From the NCBI GenBank assembly GCA_019915015.1, contig JAHBBC010000002.1, forward strand, positions 2,046,001 through 2,110,000: a stretch of DNA of 64,000 nucleotides, written 5' to 3'. Made by a program: the position numbers and the translations under genes. This document shows positions 27,791-54,547 of this stretch, in pieces (within the stretch, counting starts at the first letter, position 1; every line of letters starts with the position of its first letter). The stretch comes from Auriscalpium vulgare. Taxonomy: Eukaryota; Basidiomycota; Agaricomycetes; Russulales; Auriscalpiaceae. The notes below the pieces were generated by a model. That model saw only the letters and a list, made by a program, of their open reading frames with translations, ran no database searches and was not told where the DNA came from.

Positions 27791-27799
27791 CGAGTGAGT

Positions 27800-29035: not shown

Positions 29036-29039
29036 ATAC

Positions 29040-29105: not shown

Positions 29106-29139
29106 TATAATTATTCAGCCCGGGTATTGTAGTAGCCGG

Positions 29140-30170: not shown

Positions 30171-30173
30171 GCG

Positions 30174-31060
30174 TTGGAGGTGGCGCGGGAGCAGACACCC
30201 GAAAAGCCTGCAAGTGTGCGCAGTGCTGACCAGCCTACGTGGGTTGCAGAGGCGATAGAATACCTGTCGGATGTGATGCACAATGAAGAATGGCAGGTCT
30301 GCGTTGAGATGTGGGGTGAGCTCGAGGCTCAACTCGGCTACCCTGACAGACGTGTACGTTCTGTTCCTAATATCTTCGTTAGTCATGGAACTGATGATCA
30401 CACAGGATAGAACTCACTGGATCAAAAGCTCCGAGAGACCTGACGTGTTCACCGAATGGCTGCGGCTGCGCCGAGTGTACACGTATGTCCCCGACATCCC
30501 GGATGTGGCCGCGTACGGGGACGCCTGGAGAGTGTGGTGGCTTTCACTCCAGCCGTCCTGGAGGTGCGAGGATCCGGCGGTATGGCCCCCGCTTCGAGTG
30601 GAGGGTAAAGAGACCGAGTGGCGCCAGGTGCGCAAGGGAGGAATGAATGGCCTCGTGACCGTGCTGATTGGATTGGGGTGGTGGGCGACTGCGGAGGGGG
30701 AAGGTGATGATGAAAGCGAGCGCACGAAGATGCGAGAAGTTGCATCAGCGGTTGAGGACGTTGCCTGGGTCCTGACGCAGCTATTGGGTTTTGAAGGGGT
30801 CCTGAAGGAGACGTTGGGGACTGAAGACACATCCGCAATCCCTGTGAAGCGAGCGGCTGAGAATGACAGCGGACCCGCCGTGAAAAAAAGGTACGCGCAC
30901 CTTGGGGTATCAAGGGTGCTGAGCTCACTATGTATGCACAGGGTAACTCGGAGTGATGCAAAACGTGTCCTTGAAACGGCCCCTGCAAAGCAAGCGGCCA
31001 AGGCTGGACGAGCAGTCAAGCCAAAACCCGCCAAGACAGGAAGGTATGCGCACCTTTGAA
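30174..31060 (+). pseudogene. 3' relic of a W/S-family KDZ cargo gene
   Basis: The first part encodes TWVAEAIEYLSDVMHNEEW and the second, after a probable intron at about 30,353-30,408, contains WRVWWLSLQPSWR, GGMNGLVTVLIGLGWW and DVAWVLTQLLG. Gene S at 49.4-52.4 kb has the same layout in its last two exons (FREAYQSMASHNFGEEW, then RWWVSLQP, then GVNGLLSVVAALTWWG). The 5' four exons are missing, the splice leaves a frame problem, and the upstream DNA is repeat. It is therefore a 5'-truncated third copy of the family, lying just left of the 146-bp subterminal array, the same position gene S has in the complete KDZ element. Confidence 0.7.
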
Positions 31061-35500: not shown

Positions 35501-36651
35501 ATCCTTTTCCTAAAGCTGATGGCACGAAGTCCCTTGTCAAACCACCTCCTTCACCTTGCAAGCTTTGTGGGAGTAAACATCATTGGGACCGAGAATGCCC
35601 TCACTGGCCGACTTACGTCAAGAAGAAGGAAGTAAATCTTTTGAGCGCGGGATTAGAGTCGGATAGGTCTCCGGAGGATGAACTCATGTATAATACTTTG
35701 TTTGAAGCGTACCTAATGGAAGCTATTTCTTCAGCTTATATCGTATCGCGCCAGAGCGAATGGTCGGAAGCCGACCATGAGACGATAGAAATGAGATCCA
35801 TTGAGAAGCAGGTAGATATTGGGCAGGAAATCCCGTCCGTACGAGAAGTGCTGACAGCACGTACTCGAGGAAACCTCGAGAAAATCGTACGGACCCCCTC
35901 TCCTACAGTAGAGGAAGTGGAAGACGAGTATTACACTCAATTAAGGCTCCACGGTCGATCAAGTCCTAGCGACGGCAGTCTCATAGAACGAATTGAGGCA
36001 TTGCAAGCCGAAACGCCTGAGATGGAGATCATCAAATTAAAGAGGAAGCGCACTTCTATCCCCGGAATGTCAGCCGTAGGCATGTCAGTAGTGTCCATGA
36101 GAGGACGAATCATGATTCCCTCTGGACCTTTGCGCGATTTACGACTAGATTCATGCGCAGATATCTCTCTCCTCTCCAAATCGACTTATGATCAGCTAGT
36201 TAATCCGCCGGCCCTGAGGCAGGGGTTGAAGTTGAAGCTCGTGCAATTGACAGCTAAGGAGGCTTCCTTACATGGATATGTGATGTTACCCATTTTCGTG
36301 CACACGGTCGACGGAAGAGAACTCCAACTAGAAGTCGAGGCGTACGTGGTATCGAACATGTCGGTGCCCATTCTATTAGGAGAGGACTTCCACCAAGCTT
36401 ATGAGTTGGCTGTTGAACGAAACTTGGAATCAGGAACTCGAGTATACTTCGAAGGACGGAAATACGAGGTTCTAGCTGAAAGAGTTCAAGAGTCAAATGG
36501 GAAGGAAGCTCGGATAGCGAAAAGGGTACTGGGGGCTCCACTGGCACGCTTTATTCTCGCCAAAGCTCATCGTCGGAACAAGGCGAAGCGCAGAGTCTTG
36601 AGAAAGGATGCGGAAGGTCCACGAAGCGTGCGGGTATCTAGTGACTTCTGA
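32506..36651 (+). CDS. Chromovirus Gag-protease polyprotein
   Basis: 1,381 codons from ATG 32,506. The N-terminal third is hydrophilic and partly helical. Residues about 600-710 are a glycine/proline-rich stretch (GGGPPGG type). The capsid-like domain follows from about residue 725 (LKEELRPDHLPSW ... WWIQVSRRM ... MPEDYLQRR). A CCHC zinc knuckle (CKLCGSKHHWDREC) fits C-x2-C-x4-H-x4-C. The retropepsin-like aspartic protease has LDSCADISLLS as active-site motif and ends near ILLGEDFHQAYEL; the DSC form replaces the more usual DSG or DTG. The frame ends at TGA 36,651, just before the reverse transcriptase frame. It forms the virus-like particle and processes itself (family knowledge). No frameshift was seen inside it. 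Confidence 0.88.
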   Translation: MPPPSPSHLQTPSRAATLDYSFSPRRAGEVKAQSRHLPAAPQSEEDITLDNASRAEIADSIYAKFRTSPDDYEPSLEARVEALISAPLSQRYILRDGPLLPVGSEQYSLKSHVLWPAIGVAAELQDLISQLYALLDPPRSSFVIDYNNHLIVALRGSRTLNELDLAWEILVHRLSLAVKHLEKAREEIVGSVRIASPATTTQSETVRLHGLSTLNVLKEYLQRPALRERMDQFIMDLLRTNAQALPHEVWPLPDNFLDEVIAAESQPPPRTLAPSPRQNTLITPPHIRDEPEEASGQGNKGKGREDETIIGEQHTRYESFATGASSRPRSSLPAQLTLQNVEHPPFRKAGDFFERFNKPSATYVSQVLPYTPVRTATQVSMARGDVTQGLGLPGDIPGADPLPSEPENVAEQIQVQRTPEADTSSKEVATYLAPSMYNAETGSVSAMPYKRNLYAQPPLQPAFSLDAMGVKTQPITQGLPDRQTPPHLRSANLNNFATQPTRVERTVNFEERVPWDKRMARDNGDEFPTGPSSSLPLLKGEWPRSSPSKPDQQNLTPPWGSNFPFAPRRNTLVTGFPSKPDPLPEDPSAGYSNHGDSAEPAGGGVPGGGPPGWPPSLGGAGGSGGGPPGGPPGFPGGGPPGGYPGMPGGGGGPPGGGLPGTFPGYPGGMPPGGPYGPPGGGGPPGGPPGGGGGPPPGWGYPWQWHGYPNNPQGNLNLGPRLKEELRPDHLPSWDGNKHTAIAYFADVQELAVMNESLPAAMGRWLWTQLKDNSRVKRWWIQVSRRMKTYMMANHLNWLNGLKSVFLGRQWQLERNMEFTEMFFRQKGHEREMPEDYLQRRIMYARALLNTDNGGPEEAQIVLRNVPSSWMTTLNVPLPLSTDDLTRRAQDNALALIAASRNSSDLVSKEEIPQLVRQAIREENARPFRPRAFRGRNDRGQASVHLASGNGDEAEEADFPIVNEDDEENLSAPDQVDPAVSAQVFATLVKRQRAPPKGGYPFPKADGTKSLVKPPPSPCKLCGSKHHWDRECPHWPTYVKKKEVNLLSAGLESDRSPEDELMYNTLFEAYLMEAISSAYIVSRQSEWSEADHETIEMRSIEKQVDIGQEIPSVREVLTARTRGNLEKIVRTPSPTVEEVEDEYYTQLRLHGRSSPSDGSLIERIEALQAETPEMEIIKLKRKRTSIPGMSAVGMSVVSMRGRIMIPSGPLRDLRLDSCADISLLSKSTYDQLVNPPALRQGLKLKLVQLTAKEASLHGYVMLPIFVHTVDGRELQLEVEAYVVSNMSVPILLGEDFHQAYELAVERNLESGTRVYFEGRKYEVLAERVQESNGKEARIAKRVLGAPLARFILAKAHRRNKAKRRVLRKDAEGPRSVRVSSDF

Positions 36652-36701
36652 ACCAATCGTCTCCGTACATCCCGGTAGCGAATACGTCAGCGCACCCTAA
36701 G

Positions 36702-39348
36702 ATGCTGCGGAAAGGAGAAGTCGTAGGACATCTGGTCGACCCTGCTAAATTCCTGGATGCCCCCGGGAGTGTCGAGAATTCGGAAGCTTTAGCAAATCAC
36801 GCAAGCGTCCTCAAGCAGTTAGTACACGCGAACTTAAACTTGCAATCTGAAGTAAGAGATGCGGAAGTCAGGGTTGCTCCCGAAAGGCCGACGGAAGCCG
36901 TCGAGCCAGAACCTCAGGAAGAGGAGATTTGGGGGCCCAAAACTGCTGAAGTGCCCGATCCAACCATATGGCCATCTCAAGACATGGAAGAGCTCCTCGA
37001 TGTAGGGCAACTTCCGGAGGAGCTGAGAGAACGAGCTTGGGAAATGCTGCGACGCAGACAACGAGCATTTGTATTTGATGGAAGATTGGGAAAGCACCAA
37101 TCGAGGGTACACATTCGTACCGAGGACGGACAAGTGCCTATAGCCGTGCCCATGTACGGGAGCTCTCCGGCCAAACGAATGGTTATTGAAGAGCAACTTA
37201 ATGTGTGGTTTGAGCAAGGGGTCATTGAACCATCCGTTAGCCCTTGGAGCGCTCCGGTCGTCATCGTCTACCGAAATAACAAGCCAAGATTTTGTGTAGA
37301 CTACCGGAAGCTCAACGCAGTCACTGTCCCAGACGAATTTCCTATTCCACGCCAGTCTGAGATTCTTTCTTCACTCTCAGGATCTCAAGTCTTGTCATCT
37401 CTGGACGCTCTAGCCAGATTCACTCAGTTAGAGATGGCCCCGGAGGATGTAGAGAAAACTGCCTTTCGCACGCACAAAGGGCTCTTCCAGTTTTTGAGGA
37501 TGCCCTTCGGACTACGTAACGGCCCTTCGATCTTCCAACGCGTCATGCAAGAGATCTTGTCCCCGTACCTCTGGTTGTTTTGTCTGGTCTACATAGACGA
37601 CATAGTGGTTTATTCGAGGAGCTATGAAGAACACATTGAACATTTGGACAAAGTACTCGGAGCCATTGAGAAATCAGGAATTACATTATCTCCGAAGAAA
37701 TGTCATCTTTTCTATAGTTCCATCATTCTACTCGGACACAAAGTCTCTCGGTTAGGTTTGTCGACGCACAAACAAAAGGTGGAAGCCATCTTGAAGATGC
37801 CGAGGCCTACTAAGGTGGCCGAATTACGCACGTTCCTGGGGATGGCGGTGTATTTTTCAGCGTTCATACCACACTACGCTACACTTGCAACTCCTCTATT
37901 CTCGCTGACCCGGAAGGGAGCTGCATGGAATTGGCGTGCCGAACACGAAAGAGCCTTCGAAGAGATCAAGAAAGCTCTATCTCGTGCTCCGGTACTGGCG
38001 CATCCGGAGATGGGGAAGCCCTATCGGTTGTATACGGATGCTTCCGGAGACGGTCTAGGAGTTACTTTGCAACAAGTGCAAATAATGGCCTTGAAAGATC
38101 TGAAAGGAACGAGGACTTATGAGCGTGTCCGTCGGGCATACGAGTCGGGGAAGCCGGTTCCCAAGCTCACGACCACTTTATCGAGCAAGATTATTGACTG
38201 TGATTACGAGAGCTCCTGGGGAAGCTCTTTCGAGGATACGACCGTACAAGTCGAAAGGGTAGTAGGATATTGGAGTCGAACTTTCAAACCAGCGGAAAGG
38301 AATTATTCTGCAACGGAGAGGGAGGCTCTAGCCGCTAAAGAAGGGCTCGTAAAATTCCAGCCGTTCATCGAAGGCGAACGTATCTTACTCGTCACTGATC
38401 ACGCGGCTCTTCAATGGGCAAAGACGTATGAAAACAATAATCGACGACTGGGAGCTTGGGGAACTGTCTTCTCGGCTTACGCTCCGGGCCTGGAGATCAT
38501 TCATCGTCCGGGTAGGGTACACTCCAATGTAGATCCCATCTCTCGCTTGCTCGAAGGCGTGCCCAGTTATGTAACTCCTAACGACGAAGACTCACCCGCT
38601 CTAACGCTTGCCAAGTTGTCCGAGTCTCCTCTGAGGGGCAACTCCGTAGGAGAATTAGAGAAGTCCGTACAATTGGTATTAACGGACTGGAACGACGGCT
38701 TGTTTAATCCGCCACATCATTGTTTCCAAGTTACGACCCGTTCCTACAAGACGGCTAGTAAGAACCTAGATTCGGAACGCGCGACGAAGGACTACATCTC
38801 GGGGGAGCCATCGTTGGAAGCCGACACAGGAGAGATCAGGGCGTCTGACCTGTCAGAGCATATCGATCTGTACGACAAGCAGCGAGCCTGGGAAGCCGCA
38901 AATCCCCCTCCTACTATTCATGTCCACATGGATAAGAGTTATCTGCAATCCTTTCTGCAAGGATATAAAGCGGATGCCGCTTTCAAGCAGAGATGGGAAA
39001 GTACTAGTACTTCTCCGGATTCTTGGGATGCGGGACAGCGATATTTCAAGGACGAGAAAGGACTGCTATACTTTAGAGATGCGGATTTCCAACCCCGGCT
39101 TTGTGTTCCCAAATCCCTGCGAGCCAGTCTGCTCCTTCAAGCTCATGAATCTCCATTCGAATCGGCTCATGCCGGCGCAGAGAAGCTATGGCAGCTCATG
39201 AGCGGAAAATTCTTTTGGCCTTCAATGAAGAAAGACGTACAACGGTTCTGTGACACCTGCGATGTATGCCAGAAAATCAAGCACAGGAACTTTACTAAGT
39301 TCGGCCGTTTGATTCCGAATCCAGTTCCGCGACGCCCCTACGAATCTG
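36702..39348 (+). CDS. Chromovirus Pol, 5' part: reverse transcriptase, RNase H, integrase zinc finger (interrupted)
   Basis: The reverse transcriptase runs from about FCVDYRKLNAV through SSLDALARFTQLEM, MPFGLRNGPSIFQ and the catalytic YIDD. The RNase H region has RLYTDASGDGLG, SATEREALAAK and VTDHAALQWA. The integrase zinc finger has HES-x4-AHAG and CDTCDVC. Pol is in the -1 frame relative to Gag. That frame is open only from 36,645 because stops lie at 36,639-36,644, and Gag stops at 36,651, so the overlap is six bases. ATG 36,702 could serve as a separate start. The coding sequence is broken at YES (39,342-39,348) by the KDZ element and resumes in frame at 53,439. As it stands the integrase is inactivated. 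Confidence 0.88.
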
Positions 39349-39690
39349 CAGGCGTCCCTGTACCCCGTTTACAAAGGTACATACATGTATGTACCCGCCT
39401 GTTTACAAAGGTACCCACCTAGAAAAGTGCTCTTTATTAATAGGGACCTGTATACGAAAGTGGTTGGAATGAATGGGGGAGAATGTAGGGTCCCCCTAGG
39501 GCTCCCCTAGGGTGCTCTAGCGGTGCTAGCAGCGGGTTTGTAGGGGGTACTTTGTAAAGAGCACCTCTTTATAAAGAGCACCTGCCGAAACACAAACGAT
39601 TCCCCAGGTCCAAATAAATCTGGATAAATCTGTAAAATGCGCAAAATATTCGTAGCCTGCTCTGATTGTACGATTTTCGGGTTCCCAGCA
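39349..39690 (+). repeat. Left terminal inverted repeat of the KDZ/TET transposon
   Basis: Matches the right end inverted with very few differences, except in the outermost 25 or so bases, where GTCCCTGTA and TTTAC are kept but flanking bases differ. Contains a second TTTACAAAGGTAC, a CCCCCTAGGG palindrome patch and the first subterminal unit. Confidence 0.9.
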
Positions 39691-40540
39691 GGGGGTACTT
39701 TGTAAAGAGCACCTCTTTATAAAGAGCACCTGCCGAAACACAAACGATTCCCCAGGTCCAAATAATTCTGGATAAATCTGTAAAATGCGCAGAATATTCG
39801 TAGCCTGCTCTGATTGTACAATTTTCGGGTTCCCAGCAGGGGGTACTTTGTAAAGAGCACCTCTTTATAAAGAGCACCTGCCGAAACACAAACGATTCCC
39901 CAGGTCCAAATAATTCTGGATAAATCTGTAAAATGCGCAGAATATTCGTAGCCTGCTCTGATTGTACAATTTTCGGGTTCCCAGCAGGGGGTACTTTGTA
40001 AAGAGCACCTCTTTATAAAGAGCACCTGCCGAAACACAAACGATTCCCCAGGTCCAAATAATTCTGGATAAATCTGTAAAATGCGCAGAATATTCGTAGC
40101 CTGCTCTGATTGTACAATTTTCGGGTTCCCAGCAGGGGGTACTTTGTAAAGAGCACCTCTTTATAAAGAGCACCTGCCGAAACACAAACGATTCCCCAGG
40201 TCCAAATAATTCTGGATAAATCTGTAAAATGCGCAGAATATTCGTAGCCTGCTCTGATTGTACAATTTTAAGGTTCCCAGCAGGGGGTACTTTATGAAGA
40301 GCACCTGTTATGTTATGCTGTTGGTGGGTGGGAACAAATCAGATGAAATCTTACAAATAGTCAGAATATTCATATCTCTTGATGATTCTTCATTTCCAGG
40401 TAGGGGCTACTTTATAATGTGGACCTGCTATACAATATTTGTTGCCAGGCATTCAGATCGTACATGCCTCCATCATTTTCCCAGCTATAGATGACATAGC
40501 AGAGGGTACTTCATAATGTGCTCCTACTATATCTTTGTAT
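39545..40540 (+). repeat. Left subterminal array, 148-bp unit
   Basis: Five near-identical 148-bp units start at about 39,546, 39,694, 39,842, 39,990 and 40,138. Each begins GGGGGTACTTTGTAAAGAGC and contains AAAGAGCACCT twice. Three decayed units follow to about 40,540. Open frames spaced by 148 bp on the minus strand are products of the repetition, not genes. Confidence 0.9.
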
Positions 40541-40581
40541 ATTTCTTCTACTCACTGCCCATTGGATCATTATGTATTATC

Positions 40582-43500
40582 TCATTCTACATCTATTTCA
40601 ATAGGTGTAGATAACACAACTAGAGGTCTACCATCCTCCTGACGTGTCTGTAGGAATGTTTCAGCAGCCTTTCGAACAATAGCCCAGGAGGCTGAAAATT
40701 GCACTGAAAAGTCAGAAAACATGACAGCCTGTTTACCTGCATATCCAACCAGCCCCTCCTGTAGCTCACGAGACACATCAGGCCTTTGACCAGATTCGCC
40801 GCGAGAGGTCCACAGGTCCGACTTCCACATGCATGTTGCCACAACACGACGCATTTCCTCATAAAGAAGAAGTACCTCCTCAACCCAACGCTTCGATCTG
40901 GCACGCGCCTTGAACCACTCGATCTTCAAATCTGCGAGAATATCAGCCTATCAAGTTGTATGATACACCAGGCTGTGAACTTACCATCACCGATCTCCAT
41001 CTCCCCGTTCTCGCCCTCCCCATATGAGTACCAAACCCACGGCACAGTATGACTGCTTTCTCCGCTAGCCGCACCTCCCGGGTGGCGGCCACGAACGTAC
41101 TCACGGAGCCGTTGCTCATCAGCGTGGTCAATCACATGGATCATTCGTTCCCCCAGCCCAACCAGGTGCTCATCCTTGAGCTCCTGGAATCGACGCTGCC
41201 AGTCCCCATCTCCCGAGAGCCCTTGATACGCCGCGCGGTGCTTTCGATAAGCTTCTGCCGCGCGTTTCACGGAGTCCTCGATACGAGCCTGCATGTCCCG
41301 CGCACGAGTGTTTGGCCGTTGACCGCGAACGTTCTTGATTTTCCATGTGTTGACATACGTGCGGAAGCGGAGCTGGTGGCGGACATCCTCAAGGGCGTCG
41401 CACATGCCAGCATATCGAAGCTTTGACTCCGTAGAGACGATCGTCGGGCTGCAAAGCTCGTCACGCTGTGCTGCTGTGAAGTCGGAGGGAAGGTACAATT
41501 TGATGCGCTCGGGCTGCTCGCTGGAAAGGCTAGATGCAGACTCAGCTGCATCGATTTGCGGCGTGACAAATGGCATGTGTAGTTCTTGATCCAAACGAAA
41601 GCGGCGAATTTGCCGTAAGATAGCTGTTCTCGCGTCCAGTAGTAGCGTCGCTTGGTTCGCCGTGGTATCGCTCTGACGGTCAAGCCGTAGCTTCAGCCTG
41701 CAAGAGAATGTTGAGCGCAAGGTGGGGGAAACGCGTCAGGGTAGCTTACTGTGCGGCTTCAATACGCAGACCCTGCAATAAGAAGGTGCCCACGGCGGGC
41801 TCTGAAGTCGTGTTGCTGTCCAAACGAACCGCCGCATGTTCGTCCCGCGAGAGTTCCAATCGGACATCGTCCACTGTGAGGTCTAAAGGCTTGTCAGTGG
41901 ATTGGATGCCAGCGCATCAGCTATGTGCACGCACCTGACATTGGCTTTCGATAAGGGTTGCTCTTGCCGCTGGGATCTGCCTCCCAGGACTCGATGGTAC
42001 CTTGCCATTCACCCAGGACGTCCGGGTGCTGAGCTTGCAGACTGTCCGTGAATTCCGCATATATATCGCCATGCTCCTCCGAGCGTTGGATTGCCACCTG
42101 TAACTGTCGTCGTAGGAGCTGTACTGTAGGTCCATGAGCGCGAAACAGACAATGTGAGCGGTGATAAAAACGTACGAAGCCCGGTAAAGCGACGCCAGTT
42201 TGACTGGCCGCACTGGTCGTCGAGTGTGTCGTGCCGTCCGCCGGGGCCCATTTCCTTCGTGCTCGGGGCAGCCCCGTTGACAACCGACCAGCCGCGCTCG
42301 ACACTCTCTCCATCGGTTTGACCGGCGCCCTGTTCCTTGTGTGACGAAAAGTCGTCTTGACATTCCTCCTTGTGGGCAAATATGTGGAACTTCGGCACCA
42401 TGAAGTGGATGAATTCGGGGAGGGTGAACCTAGTATCGGCGACACGCGTCCTCAGGTTCTTCGACCATTGGCACGCGATGTCGTAGGAAACGAGGAGTGC
42501 GCGGTTCGCGGCGCTCGAAATGCTGCTGAGAAATACAAAGTCCATGTTGCAATACCTACAACCAGGAAGTTGGGTCAGCAAGCATGATCAACGCCGAGTC
42601 AACGTAGCACGCACCGTTCTCCTTTCTGCAAGTCTGCGAGCCCCAAAGGCCGCCAGAATCCGTGCCTCGCGCAGCACACCCCTCCAACGCCCGTCGCCCT
42701 CAACCCCTTGCTACTCTTGAGGTTTGCGGCCGCTACCGCCGAGAATCGCGAGCACCCCGACATCTGTCATGGTACAAATAATCAGCGTATGTACAGGTCC
42801 CGGCAGCAGACCCTGCTCACCACATCTTGGTCCCAAAATTTCGCCAGGTGGGTCTCATATTCTTCATCCGAAACGAAATATGCCTTGCCTGTTCCCAGGC
42901 CGGGGTCTCTGGTGCTGGATGATCGCAGTCGATTCTTGAGCCGGAAATTTGCATCGACTGCGACCATGAGCCTGTAAAGCCAGCTATTGGAAACATCAGC
43001 TAGCGTCGGGCGGGATGCTGCTGCTACGCACCTTCGATTTGGCGGTGCGGCCTCCCATCCTTCTGGTAGGTTGACGTCCGGCATGGGGCATGCAGGACAC
43101 GTCACTGCCAATTCACCAGGGCCTGTCCCCACAACGCCCGCTGGATCGTGACCCCTTCCCGCCCGTTTCATCATTTTGATATGCCGCCACTCACGCGCCA
43201 TCGTCATGAAAGCCGTCAAACGGTCCTGGGCGCGTCGTGAGCATACTGAGAGGCAAGCTAACCAAGCAGAGCTCACCGGTGGCACGCTCAAACCAGACCC
43301 GTCCGTCAGAATCTCCAGCGACTTGTAGAAGTCGTAGCCGGACAGTTTGCCCTGCAGTGACAGCTGCTGAAAGGTGTCCAGGCACGCAAAGGTCGCGGCC
43401 GTCTGGGGATCCACGACGGTGGCAGGCCAGAGCCCGGAGCGCATGAACTGTTGCCTTCGCTCGAGGCCGGTGGACAAGCCGCATCCGCAGTAATCGACTT

Positions 43501-44294
43501 TGACTTTATGTACACCGTTCGTATGCAGGACAACAAAGTCGTCGCGGGCGGGGCTGAGGCTGCCGCATTTCATACCGGGGGTGTGGCACAGTTGCAGGCG
43601 CAGGCCGAGGGAGGAGAGTGGCGACCGTTCGAAGAATGTACCGTTCCATCTCTGCCAGTGGCTGTGAGTCGTGTGCTGTAAGAAACAAAGTGCCGTGACG
43701 CACCTCCGTCCAATGAAAAGGGCAGCGCACATGGAACGCGACCGTGCACTCAGCGCAGAATAACTCGAATCCCGCACAATCTCGACAGCGGATGGTGGCA
43801 GGCCTCTCCCTGCATGATCGGCATGTCGAGTCTTGCGCATATTGCCCGCGACCCTCCAACAACAGCAGGCCATCCAGATATTCGTCGCGGTGCATTATCC
43901 AGGAGAGAAGGGGCAGATCCTAGAACGTGCCGTGTAAGTAGCAAAAGAGAACAGGATGGTATGAACTCACCGAAGACAGCCATCGGCGAGTGCGTCCCAA
44001 GGCTACGTCAACCGGCGTAATGGGAATGACCTCGCCATCTTCATCCAACGCCAGAAGCCCGTCTGGTTCGACTGTCAAATCGGTGCGCCCGTTGCCATCC
44101 CAGAGGTCGTTGCGCGGCGGGGATGGGGCTGGAGTGACGGGTTGCAGAAGTGGGCGAGTCGGTGCAACCGGCGTCCGCCTCTCGACAAGTCGCCGTCCGT
44201 CTTCAGATGCAGTGAGAACAAGAGAGCGATTGACAGCAGTAGGGGTTTTCTCGAAGAAGGTGGATTGCCGTGGGTTGGCCTTGGGGCGTGTCAT
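40582..44294 (-). CDS. KDZ transposase 2 (CxC2 cysteine cluster)
   Basis: From ATG 44,294 exon 1 encodes a proline-rich leader ending RRWLSS. An intron leads to DLPLLSWIMHRDEYLDGL. The CxC2 cluster lies at about 43.86-43.73 kb (CRSCRERP, CRDCAGFELFCAEC). Next come RWNGTFFERSPL, a cysteine pair (YCGC) and a segment with CPACPMPDVNLPEGW, which KDZ transposase 1 also has. The core follows: VAVDANFRLK (about 42.96 kb), CCARHGFW, LQKGER/YCNMDF split by an intron at the same place as in transposase 1, SYDIACQW (about 42.48 kb) and DGESVERGW (about 42.30 kb). The C-terminal helical part ends at 40,582. All key motifs are intact, so the protein may be active. It lies 108 bp downstream of the TET/JBP stop on the same strand. 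Confidence 0.85.
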
Positions 44295-44402
44295 GGATGC
44301 GCACCGTGCAGCCCTGGTGCAGCCACAGCCGCGTTGTTGACAAGTCAGAGGCGGTCACGTGAGCGCATGCGCTTTGTTCAACATGTGTTGTATTGTACTA
44401 TA

Positions 44403-46182
44403 CTAGCCTATCTGCTGATGCCCGCCCTTCTCTGCGTCTGACGGCCCTAGCCCAAAGACCTCCCGCACATCGGCCTCGAGCGCCGAAAGATGGGAGAAGA
44501 GGCCCATGGCATCCGTCGCGCGCTGAGACCTCTGGGAGTACACCTCTGCGAAACCCTTGGCGTCCTCCTTCTCGAAGGCCTTCTGGCTGCGAAAACCATA
44601 CTCAACGTAACGAAACAGCGCGCCGGATGTGTACTGTGTGATGCACGCCCTAGTCTCGCCGTCCTGGATATCGGTATTGCCGTGCGGTACGCTGCCCGAG
44701 GGGATCGCGGCTGTGGATCCTGAGGGGAATTCAATGATGACACCCATCTGCCAGAGAACAAGGTGGCCGCCCCGCTTGTGGTCGAATTCCCCCAGGGGGG
44801 TGATCGTGCACCAGCCGTGGGCAAGATTGGCACTATCGACGTGGGCCTTCGTAGTCGCGTGGGGTCCGAAGTTGAACGTTGTGGTGGCGAAGATGCTGTT
44901 ATCGTGAGGGAGGGATAGGCCTTCATGGTGCTCCAGAAGGCGGTCGACCATGTGTTCGTATTTGCGATATAGTTTTGGGGAATTCAATGCGACGACGCCT
45001 ACAAAGCCTGTCAGAAAATATCTTGGTTCCACAAGGGGCCACGCACTGCTTCCGAATCCTATGATGCGGCGGACATGGCAGTTCCTCTTCAAGCAATACA
45101 CGACCTCCTTGTTTTTGCCCAAATTGAGCTCCTTGGGCTCCTGCGCATCGTGTCAGAAAGGCGGTGGGGCGTAAGGCTGATGCTACGCACGGTGTGGCCG
45201 CGACCGTATGAGATGCCCGTATGAATGGATGGGAATTTCCCTCGACGGCGGTCCTTGCCATCCCCCTGGAATTCCAGTTGGCCGCGTGCAGCGTCGAGTG
45301 CGGCGTACGCGCCTCGTCTCGTTTTGTCCCAGCCATCGTCATCGCCGTGGGGATGACCAGCGAGAACGGCGAGGATGCGGCCTTCGGAATCCACGAACGC
45401 AATGTGCCTCCTGCATACCCAGGTCAGAGCTCCCCACATGCGAGGAAGTCCGATGCTCACCTTCCATCCCATTTGATCAAGCGCATCCCGCGCTTTTGCA
45501 GCTCTTCCGATGTTTGCATGCCCTGCGAGAGTCCGTGCGAGGCCCCCGGTAGGCCAACCCACGCCCCTTGAGCATACTTGAGTGCGTCCGCGGCCATGGC
45601 GACGTATTCGGGGGCAGGGTGCGTGTGCTTCTTCGCGACGCCTCCGCGGACTTTGTACCTGGGCATGCGCCCCTCCTGCAACACCTTTTCACGCTTGCGC
45701 GACCTACGCAGCTTGTTGTGGAGGCGAGTGATCTCCTTGTGCCCCAGGGCCATTGGTTCGTGTTGCTCCGACGCGTGCACCTGAGGAGGTGGCGCGCTGT
45801 CCGGCGCGGAGTCTGCCATGCTTGGCCCCAGGACAATGACTTCCTCGACCCATGAAGGAAGAAGAGAGGCGAGGTGCTCGGGGTATGGATCATGCGCGGG
45901 CGCGTCGAGGCCTTCCTCCGCGAGATCTGCGTGCTCCAAGGCAGCCTGCACAAGCCGTGGCATCTCGCAGTCTGCGGCAATGGGAACGGCCTCGGACACG
46001 CCATCCAAGTGCCATCGGGTGAGCTCGGAGGGGCTGTAAAAGGGGTTGTAAACACGTTTGGAACGCGTCTGCAAAAACCGCGTCAGCGTCTGTTCCCGTG
46101 GAGACGTGTCAACTGGCTCACCGTTTTCATCGCCGTGCAGTGAGTTGACGCGACCTGTCGACGCGGCCTGAAGCCAAGGCAT
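44403..46182 (-). CDS. TET/JBP-type Fe(II)/2-oxoglutarate dioxygenase 1
   Basis: Four exons (46182-45461, 45410-45191, 45140-45047, 44998-44403) give 543 codons plus stop. The N-terminal exon is charged with a basic helix (RLHNKLRRSRKREKV). The double-stranded beta-helix core holds TTTFNFGPHATTKAHVD with the HxD iron ligands, GWCTITPLG, GGHLVLW, FPSGSTAAIPSGSVPHGN with the distal histidine, and GETRACITQY with the arginine expected to hold 2-oxoglutarate. Family members oxidise 5-methylcytosine (TET) or thymine (JBP) in DNA; the fungal ones are related to these. The second copy at 59.1-60.9 kb shares all three intron positions and phases. It is codirectional with KDZ transposase 2. No broken residue was seen, so activity is plausible. 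An additional upstream exon cannot be ruled out. Confidence 0.87.
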
Positions 46183-46847
46183 GCATAAGCAAGGGGTGGT
46201 TCTGACAGAAAGAGAATGGAGGGCGTGTTATTCGCCCCAGCACTTGGGTGGTGCCGTGTCCGGCTCGCTGCACCAAGTGCTGAGGCGTGCAAGCACCTCC
46301 AGGCGCGTACTTTTGGGTCCGTAGAGGGCGCGCGGGGTGAAGGGAATCCAGATATAACAAAGGAATGATGGGATTGAATATCGCAGGTACAAAAGATGGT
46401 GACAAAAGAGGGTGGGTGTGGCCGTGTGGTTGTGGGCGCGATGGCTCGGAGATGCGGCGAATTGAACTCGTTGAGCGCTCAAGCTCGGAGCCGCTGGTCT
46501 CGATCTTGCCAAATATCCTCTGGCAATCCTCTGATTGGGATGGATGCACATCGTCTTCTGGGTCACTGCGGCGTGTCTCTGTCCTTGCATGCTTTACTCA
46601 GTCATCTGGCAGGATTTCTGCGCAAAGCTCAATCAAATGTCAAAGGTGCACCGTTGTTGAGATGCCGAGAACTTTCGACTTGGTTTTGCATGTAAGTACA
46701 AGTTTTACGCACTCGGTCAAATTCCAAAAACAAAACAGAGCAACTGATCATCGCAAATGCGATGATGCACGCAGGTGGTCGTGAATTCATGGGATGTATG
46801 TATACAGCGCAGGTGTGCCCCATCCTCAGAGTCCTCTACTCCAACGA
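46183..46847. other. No supported gene
   Basis: Upstream region of the TET/JBP gene. Short frames only. The promoter should lie here; no clear TATA box was recognised. Confidence 0.35.
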
Positions 46848-47215
46848 TCAGGCTGACTCGGATGCTCGAATACTGCTTCCTCCGCTGCCCCCGCTTACAC
46901 ATCCCCATTTTACTCCTTCGACTTTCGAGACGGACTTCATCCTATCCTTGAGCTTGGGGTCATGATGCCCGGGGACATCATCCAACGTGTAGATCTGGTA
47001 CCGCGTGCTCTGGACTCTGGAGTCAGCAAGCAGATTGAATGAATGAAACGGTGAGCGCGCAATGTGCGCATCTTCTCCGCAGCTTCCTTGGGGTCGATCT
47101 GCTTCACCTCATGCCGCGGGCTGCTAGGCGGCGGAGTTGGCGGCCGTGGCTCGCTCAGCCTCGAGGGTTGCTCGAGGGGAAGGTGTGTGTATGTTATCGC
47201 CGCACTTTGTCGCAA
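46848..47215 (-). CDS. Possible short minus-strand gene or upstream exon, unknown
   Basis: A proline-rich stretch (RPPTPPPSSPRHEVK) followed by IDPKEAAEKMRTLRAH occupies 47.2-47.05 kb. In another frame, RYQIYTLDDVPGHHDPK and KLKDRMKSVSKVEGVKWGC run to a stop at 46,848. The amino-acid composition of both looks genuinely coding and an intron around 47,045-47,000 would link them, but no canonical donor was found and there is no ATG at the 5' end. It could be a separate cargo gene or a 5' exon of the TET/JBP gene. Confidence 0.3.
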
Positions 47216-47656
47216 GGCCTCCCTTCTCCTGCCGTATACTTATGTCCACGCCCCATACAGGACGAAGTGGGGGCTTGCTAGCGCATGGGAGATGCTACGT
47301 TGGGCCATGAAGAGCAAGAACGGCCTGTTCGAAGACCGGGAGCTATAGCACGAGGTGGGCAGATGCCCACCGGGACAGAGCCCAGGCGTGGCCTCCTCAC
47401 ACTTCTTATGATCAGATCGATGAGCAGGGTCATGGGGAACCCTCGAGTTGTTCCATATCCCGCAGGCATCGCACCAACGGTGCTCGCTGCACCGGATAGA
47501 AATTAATCACGTGCAGGTGTGCTCCCCTAAGTCACACGCTTGGACGCCCAAGGCCGACACACAACGCTGTGATTCTGCATCCTCGACACGTCCTGTTACG
47601 CCGCCAACACAACGCTGATTCTTATAAGACTGGCCCTCTAGGTAGGCATCCGCACC

Positions 47657-48920
47657 ATGGCTCCCTTCGACTTTGTCAATCAACTCATCCAGCCAGCCGT
47701 TGGTAGCTTGCCCATCAAAGTCCGCGTCAATTGCCAACCTGCTTTCTTCGATATCTGGGTGCCGCCCGACGCAGATATGACGACAACTCACCGGTATACC
47801 CAGTATGCCGTACGCCAGTGGGTGGCCACAACTCTGGGCCTCCCCCAGATGCCGGAAGTCAAAGCCAGTGCCATGACTATCCGAGACAAAGACCGTTCGT
47901 ACATAGTGCATATAATTGCTCATCCATCTAATCCTATCGCGTCTCAGATAACATCAAAGGCAATGCTCCGCCTGGCCGCAAAATGGTCCGCAACGTGGTT
48001 CCGAAGGACGGTGCGCTGTGGGCGGCTATGGATGCGCAGTTCGCACTTAGCGAACTAGCTTGGCCCAATGGTCCACCTGACGCCCAGGGTGGCGATGAGG
48101 ATGAGGTAGAGAGCAGCGATGGCGAGGAGGAGGAAGACGAGGAGGACGAAGGGATGGATCACTGTGAGTCCGCTTCGCCCTGCGATATTGGATCGATAGC
48201 TTACCCTACCCTTCACTCAGTGACAATCGTAGGAACTGTCGCATCCTTCCAGCAACAGTATGTGGAAACCAACAACGCCCGGGTCGACCGGCTGGAAGAG
48301 ACTGTCGTCTCCAGGATGGACCGGCTGGAAAAGGCCGTTGTCGCTCTCCAAGAGCTTAACGCCGGTCTAGAAGGGCGTAACATCGAACAGAGGGACACAG
48401 TGAGCGCCCTTCCCACTCAACCCGATCGGCGTCTGACCGTACAAAATAGTACCAAGCAATCAATGCCGACCTAGGATCGCATGCCTCCGCGCTGACCGAC
48501 ACAGTCCAGCGCAAAGACCTTCGCATTGAGAGCCTTGAGGCCGACATCGGCGCCCTTCAGCGGGCAATTGACTTTCTCTCCATTCGTCACCTCGTAAACA
48601 TCAGCGAGGACGCCTACTGGAAGTTTCGTGGGCTGACCAAGCCAGAGAAGAGGACGCCCGTCCCCACCCTCGTCTCCGACGTGGAGACCATTACCCGGAG
48701 CGACCCATTCACCTCTTTCAATGCAAAGGAGCTCGCCGGGGCCCTTCGTCTTGCCGTCGAACCAAGCCTGTCCCGGAAAGGCGGCAATACCGCCGCCCAT
48801 AGCGCCTCTCTGGGTGACATCCAGAAGGCGCTCGAGCGGAACAACTTCGATGTCGAGAACCGTGACCATTATCTGTTGCTTCTTCGATTCGTTCAGCGCG
48901 CGTATCCTAAGAAAGTTTAG
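47657..48920 (+). CDS. Gene Y, unknown KDZ-element cargo with coiled coil
   Basis: ATG 47,657 opens MAPFDFVNQLIQPAVGSLP. After a first intron whose borders I could not settle (between about 47,860 and 47,946), the frame reads NVVPKDGALWAAMDAQFALS and an acidic run (DEDEVESSDGEEEEDEEDEG). Introns 48164-48220 and 48400-48449 have good borders. The middle is a coiled coil (YVETNNARVDRLEETVVSRM, MDRLEKAVVALQELNAGLEG, then RIESLEADIGALQRAIDFL). The C-terminal part (YWKFRGLTKPEKRTPV, then SLGDIQKALERNNFD and HYLLLLRFVQRAYPKK) ends at TAG 48,920. I do not recognise a family. It probably oligomerises through the coiled coil. It lies between the TET/JBP gene and gene S inside the KDZ transposon. Confidence 0.6.
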
Positions 48921-49352
48921 TGATACCCGGCATCGTCCAACACAGATCGTTCGCATCCTCATCCTCATCGCATCGTCTCCTCATATGATATCCCCTTTGT
49001 ACGATACGTCGGTGGCGCGCTCGCATATATACACGTACAGTTCTATCGGTAACGGATTCCCGGCTATATATTCCATGCTGAATGACTCGCGTGAGAACGA
49101 GTTGAGTATGGCCGATCATTTCGGCTGCTATGGATTGACACGGGAGGAAGTATCTCGAGTGGCAAGAATGAACCCCATATCATAATTGGGAAGTCGAGTA
49201 TGCACAACTGTAAATAGATGGTTGGCCCTCGAGACAGCCGGCGGTCGGGGCCCAACCAAGCGCCTTGACCGCGGACAAACCCTCTACCAGAGCCAGCGAA
49301 AAAGAAATACGCTGCCTCTCCCCACCACTTTCACAACCCTATCGACCCCGCC
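48921..49352. other. Gene Y to gene S intergenic region
   Basis: 432 bp without a supported gene. The 5' part is AT-richer with repeated TATATA words (about 49,024-49,072), possibly the 3' region of gene Y; the promoter of gene S should be in the second half. Confidence 0.4.
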
Positions 49353-52300
49353 ATGCCCCGAGCGAGCACAGGAAAACCGCGCGGTCGTACGTCCTGGGCG
49401 CAGGGAACAAAACTCGCCTTCCTCGTTCGCCACATGGACGGCTATAGGAAGGTTGAAGGCGATAAGCTGAAGGTCGCAAAATTTTATAATTCGCTCACCA
49501 GGCTGTGGATCCTGAGGTATAAGTATGAAAAGGCCATCGACGGCGACCTCGAGGAAGACAGCCCTGACCCCGACATCTCCCTCCTCGACGAGATCTCCGA
49601 CCACGAAGGCGAGACGGAGGAGGAGTCTCAGCAGCGCCTGTCTGTGCGCAAGGTAGTTCATAAGGTGTGTGGGACTTCACCACAAGCGTAACACGGCGTT
49701 GACCATTTCACAGCGCATCTCGGGATGGTATCAGTATAACTCGAAGAAATTAGGAAACCTACCGGCGCCGTCGGTCGCGTCGCACGAGGAAACGTTCCTT
49801 GAGCTCGTGCAGGGCGTTATCAAGCAGCCGCGCCATGAGAACATCCTGCATGTCTTCGCAGAAATGTATGCGGAGTTGATCGAGCCCGAGTACGCAAAGG
49901 AGTGGGCGACGGCTGTCGCCTTGGCCGGGCAGGGCGCTAAGGGGCTTCCCAAGGCGGTTGAAGTCCGAAATCGACTGGTGAAGCGCATCTTCGACCGGCA
50001 GAATGAGACTGTGCAGGCGACCGTCAAGCAAGTCGTCGACACCCGCTACGAGAAGGCGATGGCCGACTACCAGAGGGCTTACATTGACGCGCCGAGGACC
50101 CGCGAGCAGAAAGAATGGTAAGCTATAGCACACCCGTACAGCGCAATCAACACTCACCTCGCTGCAGGGCCCTCAATTCTGCGTTTTCCATCCTGCAGCC
50201 AATGGTCGATATGGTTTCGTCCCGGTTCGGTGTCGCTGCGACATTGATGATGGCCGGCCCTATGCCATCGAAGGGCGGCGAAGTCGACGTGTTGAGGTGA
50301 GAGGCTGTGTACGCACCTTAACCGTGACTGCGACATTGAAATTTGACTGTCTTGCAGCGTTCACTCGGGGGAGTTGCGTGGCCTGGTCAACATGATCTGG
50401 CCGGAATACGACCGCGCTGGGTACGATACAGCAGCCAACTCGCTGATAGGATTTGCGCAGGCCGTGTTTCGTAAGTTTGAAGCCTTCATGCGCTCGTTGG
50501 TCGTGTGCTGACGAATCTGGACCAAGGCGATCTCCCGGACCGGCCCGCAGGTGCCAGCACAGCAGCAACTGGCAAACGCGCCTCTGAGTCTGACAGCGCC
50601 TCCAACAGCAGCAACGAAGAGTCAGACCACCCCCTCGAGGACGACTTTGGCGCCCATCCCTCTGCTGCCCTCTCCATTGCAACTTCCTCCACTGCACCAT
50701 CCTCCGCTGCGCCCTCATGCACCGCACCCGACTCCAGCACGCAAGCGTCCAACACGCCTGGGGCAGGTGCGCTCGCCTCCAGCGCGCCCAACTCCAGCGC
50801 GCCCGCATCCAACACGCCTGCGGCAGGTGCACTCGCCTCCACCGCGCCCGACTCCACCGCGCCCGCATCCAACACGCCTGCGGCAGGTGCGCTCGCCTCC
50901 AGCGCACCCGACTCCAGCGCGCGCGTGTCCAACACGCCTGTGGGAGGTGCGCTCGCCTCCACCGCGCCCGACTCGAGCGCGCCCGACTCCACCGCGGCCG
51001 CATCCAACACGCCTGGGGCAGGTGCGCTCGCCTCCAGCGCACCCGACTCCAGCGCGCGCGCATCCAACACGCCTGTGGCCGGTGCTCGCGCCTCCACCGC
51101 GCCCGGTTCCACCGCGCCTGCGTCCAGCACACCTGCGGCAGATGCGCTCGCCTCCAGCGCACCCAACTCCAGCACGCCTGCGGCTGGCGCCTGCACCGCG
51201 CCCGACTCCACCGCGCCTGCGTCCGGCACGCCTGCGGCAGAAGCGCTCGCCTCCAGCGCACTTGACTCCAGCGCACTTGACTCCAGCGTGCCCGACTCCA
51301 ACACACCTGTGGCCGGCGCGCGCGCCTCCACCGCGCCTGACTCCATCACGCATGTTTCCTCCACGCTGAACTCTAGCAGGCCTGCGTCCACCACCCTCTC
51401 CTCTACCGCACCCGCGTCCTCCGCTCCTGTGCCATCGTCCACTGCACCGTCAACTACGGCCGCCGCGTCCGCTGCGGTCACACCGTCGTCCGCACCAGCA
51501 GCCGGCTCCAGCACGGCGGCGGCCGTATCTACCACTGCGCTGGCCCAGGGCCCTCCCTCGGCGTTTTCGGTCTTCACCGCCGTGCTCGCCGACGTGGAGA
51601 AGGCAGCCAGCACTGCGAGCGGGAACAGTGTATTGACCAAAACCATCACGGCGACAGCTGAAACCCCCACGGCCGCAGCTAACCCCGCCACAACGCTCGC
51701 CTCGACGCCGAAGTCGACTGGAGCGTTTGACACGTCTTCGTGGCCGAAAACCTTTCGCGAGGCGTACCAGAGTATGGCATCACATAACTTTGGGGAGGAG
51801 TGGCATACGCTGGTAGGCACTTACTTCTCGTTTGAGATCTCTCGTCGCTTCGAAGTGAGTGGTCGCACTTTGTCATTTTGTAATGATGTCTCATCTCTCT
51901 GATTTCAGGGAAGGCGTTTGGGGGGAACTGATCGCCCAGATGCAGTGGGGAATTGGATCAGGGACGCGCGGAAGTGGCACAGGGCGTCCGTTGACCCGAC
52001 GGAGGTTTCGTCCTTCGAAACCTCGTGGTGGCGGTGGTGGGTTTCCTTGCAACCTGCGGAGCGTGTCATCGACGCCGAAGCATTCGTCCTGGATGTACCA
52101 AAGGACGACATGTCCTGGGAGCAGGTCAACATCGCCGGCGTCAATGGACTTCTTAGCGTCGTCGCGGCGCTGACATGGTGGGGCGTTGCTGTGCATCAAG
52201 TTCAGGATGGTATACCCCGCTGGATGGATGCCGTTGTTGATGTCACACACGCCCTCCTTGCCATGCCTACCCCTCTCTTACAGGCCTTGATGACTGCCTC

Positions 52301-52397
52301 GTCATCAGGTACCTCTGTGCCATCGTCGAAGACGGCACGTCGTCAGCGATCAGACACGACGGGCACCAAGGGGCGGCCTGGCAAGCGTCGCAAGTAA
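49353..52397 (+). CDS. Gene S: W/S-family KDZ cargo protein, 924 aa, unknown function
   Basis: Six exons (49353-49664, 49714-50117, 50168-50296, 50358-50470, 50527-51854, 51909-52397) give 924 codons plus stop, with intron phases 0, 2, 2, 1 and 0. The N-terminal 430 residues form a charged helical region (LVRHMDGYRKVEGDKLKVAK; RISGWYQYNSKK; TLMMAGPMPSKGGEVDV). Exon 5 holds a long low-complexity segment of about 60-bp units encoding S/T/P/A-rich repeats such as SAPASNTPAAGALAS. After FREAYQSMASHNFGEEW the last exon carries a tryptophan-rich domain: SWWRWWVSLQP, then NGLLSVVAALTWWG, and a basic tail. Gene W shares the first four intron positions and phases and the 129-nt exon 3. The family recurs at the right end of KDZ elements here. 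No known domain was recognised; a DNA-binding or structural role is only a guess. Confidence 0.8.
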
Positions 52398-52640
52398 TTG
52401 TAGGCTGTATGTTTCATATCAATCATATGTCCCATCTTGATATTGCCTTCCTCTACCTTGTTTGGCTACACTTTGGCATCTACTCCTTAGTTACTATGTT
52501 GTAGCTAGTCTCACTGGAGTATTGTGTGCTGGCCATTTGCTACTGCAGTGACTTAAGAGCTCAAAACTGAGGTAAATCCAGGAATAAATATTACTTGTCA
52601 TGAGTTTGTTAGGACTTGCTGGCTGGGAGCAGTCACTGTA
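52398..52640. other. Gene S 3' region
   Basis: AT-rich, no coding potential; leads into the right subterminal array. Confidence 0.5.
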
Positions 52641-53230
52641 TGGCAGGTACCAATCAGAGATTAGAATAATACATACCCAGAAATACAGAATTGGCAGGGG
52701 GTATAAATATTCTGACCATTTTTGAGATTTTTCCCAATTTATTCCGACCTGAGAACAATGTGATGTAGCAGGTGCTCTTCATAAAGTACCCCCTGCTGGG
52801 AACCCGAAAATTGTACAATCAGAGCAGGCTACGAATATTCTGCGCATTTTACAGATTTATCCAGAATTATTTGGACCTGGGGAATCGTTTGTGTTTCAGC
52901 AGGTGCTCTTTATAAAGAGGTGCTCTTTACAAAGTACCCCCTGCTGGGAACCCGAAAATTGTACAATCAGAGCAGGCTACGAATATTCTGCGCATTTTAC
53001 AGATTTATCCAGAATTATTTGGACCTGGGGAATCGTTTTTGTTTCAGCAGGTGCTCTTTATAAAGAGGTGCTCTTTACAAAGTACCCCCTGCTGGGAACC
53101 CGAAAATTGTACAATCAGAGCAGGCTACGAATAGTTTGCGCATTTTACAGATTTATCCAGATTTATTTGGACCTGGGGAATCGTTTGTGTTTCGGCAGGT
53201 GCTCTTTATAAAGAGGTGCTCTTTACAAAG
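52640..53230 (-). repeat. Right subterminal array, 148-bp unit
   Basis: Three full units of the same 148-bp sequence in inverted orientation (from about 52,785), with one decayed unit inside (about 52,640-52,785). Fewer copies than on the left. Confidence 0.88.
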
Positions 53231-53431
53231 TACCCCCTACAAACCCGCTGCTAGCACCGCTAGAGCACCCTAGGGGAGCCCTAGGGGGACCCTACATTCT
53301 CCCCCATTCATTCCAACCACTTTCGTATACAGGTCCCTATTAATAAAGAGCACTTTTCTAGGTGGGTACCTTTGTAAACAGGCGGGTACATACATGTGTG
53401 TACCTTTGTAAATATACTACAGGGACTGGTG
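53090..53431 (-). repeat. Right terminal inverted repeat of the KDZ/TET transposon
   Basis: Inverted copy of 39,349-39,690. Ends TACAGGGACTGGTG just before the 7-bp duplication. Confidence 0.9.
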
Positions 53432-54547
53432 GAATCTGTATCGCTGGATTTGGTGACTGGCCTACCTTGGTCGCTAGAGTTCAATGCTGTCCTGGTTACA
53501 GTCGATCGAATGTCAAAACATGCGCAGTTTATCCCTACTACGACTGGCCTAACAGCCGAAGGATTCGCGAAACTTTTTGTCAATCATGTCATCTGCAGGT
53601 TCGGTGTGCCCGATAACATAGTTTCCGATCGTGATCCTAGGTGGACTTCTGACTTCTGGAAAGGGGTGTCGAAAGCGCTCAAAACTAGAATGTCTCTATC
53701 ATCCTCGCATCATCCTCAGCACGATGGACAGACGGAAATCGTAAATCAGAAGCTGGAGATCATGCTACGCGCCTATGTCGCTACGGACAAGACGAGTTGG
53801 GCCGAATGGTTGCCGCTGCTTGAACACGCTTATAATAATCTTCCCCATTCGTCCACGGGGATGAGTCCTCATTTCGTACTCTATGGGTTCCAACCCAAAT
53901 CCAGCTTAGATTTTGCGCAGGCAGAAGGAGCGGAAGCCGCTCCGCAGGACGCGTTATTGAATGACCGATCCGATGATTTCGTGCGACTCATGCAATACCA
54001 TAGGGAAAGCGCGAGGATGGCTCTCGCGCGAGCTCAGTTGAAACAGAGCGAATCCTACAACAAGGGTAGACGAGAGTTAGAATTCAAGGTCGGAGACCAA
54101 GTCCTGGTGAATCCTCATTCTTTGGAATGGTTGGAAAGTAAAGGGGAAGGGAGCAAGCTAGTACAGCGTGCAGTTGGTCCATTCGAAGTTCAGGAGCGTA
54201 TTAACCCCAAAGTCTACCGTCTCCGACTTCCCGACAATTACCCTGGCTCCAATGTCCTTAATCTCGAACATTTGCGTCTGTACAGACCATCAGATCCCGA
54301 ATTCGGGCATCGCACTGTGTTACCAGACACCCGTTCAGACAAGCCAGCTTCTGAAGAATATCATGTCGATAAGATTGTCGGTCATCGTTACGATAAGCGC
54401 AGGAAGCAGATGCTCTACCTCATTCGTTGGGAGGGGTATTCGCCGCTATACGACTCATGGGCAACCGCCACGGATTTACGGAACGCACCCCAACGATTAT
54501 TCTCTTACCGACGGGACGCGGGCTTGGCAGGTCCTGCTAAACGATGA
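53432..54547 (+). CDS. Chromovirus Pol, 3' part: integrase core and chromodomain
   Basis: Begins with the second copy of the 7-bp duplication and continues the integrase directly. The core has LDLVTGLP, SDRDPRWTSDFW and HDGQTEIVNQ, giving the D, D and E of the catalytic triad. A GPF/GPY-like module (VGPFEVQERI) follows. The C-terminus is a chromodomain (EYHVDKIVGHR ... YLIRWEGYSPLYDSW), which in chromoviruses directs integration to modified chromatin. Stop TGA at 54,547. Comparison with the 5' part shows that removal of the KDZ element and one 7-bp copy leaves the frame uninterrupted. Confidence 0.9.
   Translation, partial: ESVSLDLVTGLPWSLEFNAVLVTVDRMSKHAQFIPTTTGLTAEGFAKLFVNHVICRFGVPDNIVSDRDPRWTSDFWKGVSKALKTRMSLSSSHHPQHDGQTEIVNQKLEIMLRAYVATDKTSWAEWLPLLEHAYNNLPHSSTGMSPHFVLYGFQPKSSLDFAQAEGAEAAPQDALLNDRSDDFVRLMQYHRESARMALARAQLKQSESYNKGRRELEFKVGDQVLVNPHSLEWLESKGEGSKLVQRAVGPFEVQERINPKVYRLRLPDNYPGSNVLNLEHLRLYRPSDPEFGHRTVLPDTRSDKPASEEYHVDKIVGHRYDKRRKQMLYLIRWEGYSPLYDSWATATDLRNAPQRLFSYRRDAGLAGPAKR

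Follow-up and report, generated by a model that had tools for sequence, protein, structure and literature searches.

The link between KDZ transposases and TET enzymes reportedly goes back to Iyer 2014. We analyzed a stretch of 64,000 nucleotides of the Agaricomycete Auriscalpium vulgare (the window, C2:2046001-2110000 in a genome of 51.6 Mb and 96 contigs; coordinates without a contig prefix are window positions), in which a KDZ transposon carries genes for a transposase, a dioxygenase of predicted TET fold, and two further proteins, Y and S. Its TET gene is not of the type published for Kyakuja transposons in the accessible part of Kojima 2025 (PMC12730594), and S is spread more widely among KDZ transposons than the association with TET. 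In the reading that we prefer, with a probability of about 0.7, this is an autonomous and recently active cut-and-paste transposon of the Kyakuja branch, in which S would be a second core gene or helper and the TET-like protein would oxidize the 5-methylcytosine (5mC) placed by the host.

The closest described systems are the TET+ Kyakuja transposons (PMC12730594). As far as the accessible text goes, they share with the window element the KDZ transposase, the 7-bp target-site duplications, the CA..TG termini, an internal gene of TET/JBP fold, and an Agaricomycete host. They differ from it in that two Laccaria families lack inverted repeats, which here measure about 0.76-1.05 kb; in that the Kyakuja TETs are of the AG type (CcTet-like), whereas the window dioxygenase is not; and in that this part of the text mentions no second Kyakuja gene, whereas the window element has S. 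The TET+ Plavaka transposons and PE-type TETs (Kojima 2025, PMC12730594), again as the accessible text presents them, provide another example of a divergent TET-fold gene in DNA transposons of Agaricomycetes, common to several superfamilies, but the PE hallmark is HxE and the window class has HxD. CcTet itself, from Coprinopsis cinerea (7vpn, 7w5p, 8jkk), has 15% identity with the window dioxygenase, no sequence match to it at E up to 1, and different substrate residues. The KDZ1-3 elements of Cryptococcus neoformans (PMC12810828) are likewise mobile, with a KDZ transposase and terminal inverted repeats; unlike the window element, they have CxC1 instead of CxC2 and duplications of 8 bp or 4-8 bp, and the available extract of that work mentions neither TET nor S. 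In the Nuwa/Harbinger two-gene transposons (transposase plus Myb/SANT; Kojima 2025, PMC12730594, accessible part), the transposase is accompanied by a second core gene. We liken S to this gene in its way of working and claim no membership, the exons of S having no Pfam family at E up to 0.1.

The Window Element and Its Transposase

The transposon spans 39349-53431 (14,083 bp), and the target-site duplication GAATCTG stands on either side of it (39342-39348 and 53432-53438). Joining the flanks after one 7-bp copy reconstructs the empty site, with an uninterrupted open frame across an integrase; the target is a gypsy frame on the plus strand, whose left part lies at 36645-39348 and whose right part (53439-54547) contains the integrase core, SH3_Tf2-1, and a chromodomain. 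The termini are CA..TG; read inwards, the left one is CAGGCGTCCCTGTA and the right one CACCAGTCCCTGTA. In the left terminal inverted repeat (39349-40402), the terminus is followed by 5.2 tandem units of 148 bp, and the right one (52674-53431) has 3.2 such units and the end ..TACAGGGACTGGTG (CACCAGTCCCTGTA on the other strand). The presence of these units immediately inside both termini accounts for the length of the inverted repeats: 39354-40010 matches 52770-53426 over 657 nt at 98%, and the inward extension consists of the 148-bp units. An earlier note on this DNA had claimed exact borders from the 7-bp duplication and the broken integrase frame, near-perfect long inverted repeats, and a complete KDZ element. 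The first two claims are borne out by these data and the third by the transposase domain, the exact borders, the open gene models, and the existence of further full copies (see following).

The transposase and dioxygenase genes are on the minus strand, with the dioxygenase upstream of the transposase, and Y and S are on the plus strand. The transposase gene (40582-44294, minus strand, nine exons, 1094 amino acids) codes for a Kyakuja-type KDZ protein with a CxC2 cysteine cluster (PF18803, 2.4e-39); PF18758 is matched above its cut-off in one exon (4.2e-37), and a second exon falls slightly short of the curated cut-off with 2.1e-5. We take D413, D532, and E590 or E593 (motifs VAVDANF, VSYDIACQW, and ESVERGW) to be the catalytic residues. 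The KDZ domain, the CA..TG termini, and the 7-bp duplications, these last present in 11 of 11 complete elements, are features of Kyakuja, and the element probably belongs to this branch of KDZ, as assigned by domain, duplication length, and termini rather than by position in a tree. Zisupton and Dileera were rejected, since they require 8-bp target duplications. The transposase would act on the CA..TG termini (CAGGCGTCCCTGTA / CACCAGTCCCTGTA) and so produce the 7-bp duplications.

Elements with the Same Termini

The terminus pattern CAVSMGTCCCTGTA has 38 + 37 occurrences in the genome, versus 5 + 4 for the reversed control. Pairing 70 of the 75 termini (two exact forms) within 70 kb gives 30 pairs: 11 complete gene-bearing elements, 12 short pairs, and seven that we set aside. 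In each of the 11 elements (13-65 kb), KDZ core, TET-like core, and S are arranged in a constant order, and the 7-bp duplications are perfect; the KDZ core of the element on C17 is a partial match. In one of them (C25:86237-151695), the KDZ-TET-S element is stretched over 65 kb, presumably through nested insertions, with the perfect 7-bp duplication still flanking it.

Searching the genome with 197 bp of the left end yields 12 matches, which resolve to the window copy, two full copies, one broken copy, and pieces on C39, C24, and C18. The full copies are C19:889534-903910 (duplication CGCCTTT) and C9:1346766-1361291 (duplication ACAAGCA). The copy at C2:2455497-2478340 is broken by insertions and retains its perfect 7-bp duplication, C39 has a right-hand fragment, C24 a small end piece, and C18 a distant relative whose weakly similar end encloses none of the four proteins within the 15 kb examined. 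The three full copies are 14,083, 14,377, and 14,526 bp long. Over the inner 12,266 bp, the C19 and C9 copies are 11 and 10 substitutions away from the window copy, with zero indels, and hence the length differences lie in the terminal parts with the 148-bp units. The KDZ, TET-like, and S models have no internal stops and have GT-AG introns in all three. Because the full copies are nearly identical and each has its own 7-bp duplication, the window element must have moved recently.

A second family is represented by C22:181802-194957 and C9:881415-894573, which are 99.9% identical to each other and have the duplications GAGGGTC and AAAGGGT. The C22 element has the termini of the window family, a 54-bp inverted repeat, the same gene order, and, on its right side, its own subterminal array of 106-bp units. 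By stretch, its identity with the window family is about 43-66% for the transposase, 30-48% for the dioxygenase, and 30-43% for S.

No listed place of KDZ, TET-like, or S falls within the 12 short pairs (11 of about 2.28 kb and one of 2.88 kb). Three of them (L061-L063; C40:70705-72988, C69:3395-5685, and C2:1586551-1588840) were examined, and none of the four proteins finds a match in them; two of the three have 7-bp duplications. They match one another in both orientations and are nearly palindromic; the one measured and its reverse strand are 88.9% identical across 2.3 kb. Comparison of two short with two long elements reveals no wider DNA match. From their sequences, they look like nonautonomous riders sharing only the ends. 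The earlier note had regarded copies with the same ends and no cargo as speaking against functional cargo. Gene-free pairs do exist, but they lack the transposase as well, for which reason we do not count them as such evidence.

The pairs set aside are a 6.4-kb pair on C1, which has like ends and contains a piece of S, a pair on C17 with like ends and no listed genes, and five that extend across another pair (C10:997675, C2:2057730, C2:2281657, C2:2483872, and C3:981073). Both C2:2483872 and C3:981073 enclose a KDZ core without TET-like core or S; their flanks have no matching 7-bp duplication, so they are not elements. There is also no matching 7-bp duplication between C2:2057730 and the right end of the window element. 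Of the 15 KDZ cores that lie no more than 8 kb inward of a left terminus, 13 have a TET-like core close by, and the other two, at 5.6 and 6.4 kb from the left terminus, are probably unrelated to it. In the window, a left-type terminus CAGGCGTCCCTGTA is found at 11730-11743, 6.4 kb from a KDZ core at 18 kb; no partner was found for it, and it may be a solitary end.

A Dioxygenase of Predicted TET Fold

The second minus-strand gene (44403-46182, four exons, 543 amino acids) codes for a predicted TET-fold dioxygenase dependent on 2-oxoglutarate and Fe(II), with the HxD...H metal triad (H398-x-D400 and H451 in VPHGN) and R462 in GETR. Pfam gives 0 families for the full protein at E up to 10 and no match in a single-exon scan, and a sequence search of the PDB, with the protein alone or as a 71-row profile, finds no TET entry at E up to 1. 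The Tet_JBP profile PF12851 matches neither this protein nor its relative P0002, and reaches E<0.01 in 10 of 71 relatives (best 4.8e-6). As the sequence searches missed it, the TET identification rests on the predicted fold, a TET-type double-stranded β-helix whose best structural matches are the 5mC oxidases CcTet, NgTET1, and TET2. The TET/JBP label given by the earlier note is thus in agreement with the fold and without support from Pfam. The closest named relative is an Auriscalpium vulgare protein with 97% identity, and, as regards the PU type of TET (Kojima 2025), there are no rust fungi among the relatives listed with a source name.

Neither the AG nor the PE type of TET (Kojima 2025) fits. 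The AG type has Gly/Ser and Asp at positions 331 and 337 of CcTet; at the equivalents of Gly331 and Asp337 (+5 and +11 from the first H), the relatives have N in 67 of 69 and C in 69 of 69, whereas a canonical TET gene of the same genome (L037, CcTet match 2.2e-15) has by the same count G and D. As for the HxE of the PE type, D occupies this position in 63 and E in none of the 69 ungapped rows. The published association of KDZ with TET/JBP, invoked in the earlier note, therefore extends to this locus as a TET-fold gene within a Kyakuja-type element, but not as the published Kyakuja (AG) type.

Among 138 genome matches, we count 101 TET-like places, the other 37 being mostly N-terminal parts of the same genes. 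Canonical Tet_JBP (PF12851) is found at 17 places, 11 of them above the cut-off and none inside these elements; one weak place (C2:2970183) coincides with a TET-like place. At C8:1574222-1579412 and five similar loci, a canonical Tet_JBP gene and a KDZ core lie 4.6-4.8 kb apart on opposite strands, with no listed S; these loci probably represent the published TET+ type within this genome. A further TET-like frame, with an HRD motif, lies at 59670-60869, near a Plavaka transposase match situated shortly beyond the end of the window (C2:2110821-2111797, minus strand).

The mutations of the element suggest that it is methylated. We compared five copies, taking the majority base as ancestral and omitting the repeat part of S, gapped sites, sites in fewer than three copies, and sites with more than one copy off the majority. 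Private C>T changes number 40, of which the broken C2 copy accounts for 28, C39 for seven, and the window for five; 31 of the 40 are at CpG versus 30% expected (p about 1e-9), and all five private changes of the window copy are of this kind. Such a bias is expected if methylated cytosine deaminates, and the excess of CpG>TpG suggests that 5mC is present on the elements. Taken as a whole, the element shows no CpG depletion (1.01), and the genome has matches to cytosine-5 methyltransferases.

In our preferred reading, one sublineage would carry, between transposase and S, a TET-fold dioxygenase of a divergent sequence class, which most likely oxidizes the 5mC placed by the host on the element and so keeps promoters and ends usable. 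The fold, the conserved active-site residues, and the CpG footprint are the reasons for proposing this role and make anti-silencing by the dioxygenase plausible. That transposon-borne TETs serve to escape silencing is, by the own account of Kojima 2025 (PMC12730594) in its accessible part, an experimentally unvalidated idea. A possible, though in our opinion doubtful, alternative is that the TET fold here acts on another substrate or yields another product (N6-methyladenine, thymine, RNA, or another oxidized product such as a 5mC adduct) and marks or protects the element. Asp337, whose equivalent is missing here together with that of Gly331, is essential for 5mC in CcTet according to the same text (Kojima 2025, PMC12730594), which also allows other activities for divergent TET types; moreover, the structural matches include CMD1, an enzyme that attaches a glyceryl group to 5mC. 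Yet the best of these matches are 5mC oxidases, and the CpG>TpG excess points to 5mC as a base available on the elements.

Gene S and Its Association with KDZ

Gene S (49353-52397, plus strand, six exons, 916 amino acids) codes for a protein with a helical N-terminal part, a middle rich in A/S/T/P, a C-terminal WW..SLQP..GG.NG..WW domain, and a basic tail. Over six aligned rows, 13 columns of the C-terminal domain are invariant, including WW, LQP, two G, and the second WW. The model of the N-terminal part, which is helical, has a mean predicted local distance difference test score of 59, with about 72-98 per block across most of 331-560, and no clear structural relative among the folds listed. 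In the protein database, a search that requires shared 5-residue words finds one homolog (Auriscalpium vulgare, 70% over 78% of the searched part); a second search, which scored the 7999 candidates with most shared words, gives the same single homolog. No description of S turned up in our searches of open-licence papers.

The genome has 64 S places (56 of the 61 matches with the C-terminal domain of the window protein, plus eight new ones among the 61 matches obtained with the version at 30457-30897) and, among the matches listed, 108 KDZ places. A KDZ core lies behind S within 20 kb at 45 of the 64, always on the opposite strand (45/45); it lies ahead of S in seven. When positions are shifted within contigs (1000 trials), the mean is 4.1 and the maximum 17. 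Counted from KDZ, an S in this arrangement accompanies 45 of the 108 places listed and is missing at the other 63. Of the 45 linked pairs, 11 enclose a TET-like core and none (0 of 45) a canonical Tet_JBP match. By gene neighborhood, S appears to be a partner of KDZ elements more widely than the TET association is. The cargo role proposed in the earlier note is borne out for the TET-like gene and S by their presence in 11 of 11 complete elements; for S it has to be widened, because S accompanies KDZ with or without TET. One KDZ-S pair without a listed TET-like place is in the window itself (16727-30897), with KDZ on the minus strand (core about 18018-18950) and the S-type domain on the plus strand (30457-30897).

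We propose that this KDZ lineage would have S as its second core gene, transcribed divergently from the first. Its product would most likely help transposition by binding DNA or by forming a complex, perhaps on the subterminal repeat arrays. Instead of helping transposition, S might belong to the anti-silencing side, binding the element and targeting the dioxygenase there, as its basic tail, its long A/S/T/P-rich linker, and its constant company with the TET-like gene in the complete elements of this lineage could indicate. We consider this unlikely: in 34 of the 45 cases where S is linked to KDZ, no listed TET-like core lies between the two, and S therefore seems to have a job independent of TET.

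Gene Y and Neighboring Genes

Gene Y (47657-48920, plus strand, about 377 amino acids) has no Pfam family above the cut-off. All three full copies, including that of the window, give an open model for it, in which the first intron is a guess. A frameshift was considered and rejected, as there is no indel among the copies compared and the model with introns is open, with the first intron insecure. Y has 14 genome matches, obtained with a query that included one unsure junction, and all are in the five copies of the window family. In the second family, the slot between dioxygenase and S is occupied by a different gene model of 183 amino acids (L057 9455-10053), with no match to Y and, by Pfam, to any family; it has a weak and short pairwise match (2e-4) to the upstream part of Auriscalpium P0001, a protein carrying an RNase H1 N-terminal-like domain (PF01693). 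That Y is a third functional module, as its model open in all three full copies might suggest, is quite improbable given its restriction to one family and the different gene in the slot of the other, and for the same reasons the place in the system that the earlier note had offered to Y is not shown.

Elsewhere in the window (5242-9254), a NACHT/NPHP3_N frame is followed by a frame with 14 WD40 repeats, presumably a fungal NLR-like gene.

Implications

A rival view would make the TET-like gene and S unused passengers of a single capture, their order kept by common descent only. The shared termini of the 11 complete elements, which probably have one ancestor, would suit it, and so would the 12 gene-free pairs that end in these termini, although such pairs can be expected to be supplied in trans. 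It is very unlikely, because KDZ, TET-like, and S remain open in two families with protein identities of only about 30-66% by stretch and because the pairing of S with KDZ reaches far beyond this lineage. The reading of an autonomous two-core-gene transposon with an anti-silencing dioxygenase has its weakest links in the substrate of the dioxygenase and in any physical role of S. A bolder version, which we offer only tentatively and think less likely to be right than wrong, would see the KDZ transposons of mushrooms as two-gene machines (transposase plus S), to which one lineage added, between the two genes, a fourth and hitherto unclassified TET type; the result would be a self-contained unit that moves and removes its own methylation locally, with S guiding both movement and demethylation through the subterminal arrays.

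S is thus a candidate second core protein for the KDZ superfamily. This TET sequence class has probably been undercounted, because Pfam misses the window dioxygenase and most of its relatives. With near-identical copies, KDZ-S pairs with and without a TET-like gene, canonical TET genes as controls, and gene-free riders, the genome of A. vulgare offers a clean test of the anti-silencing role of TET.

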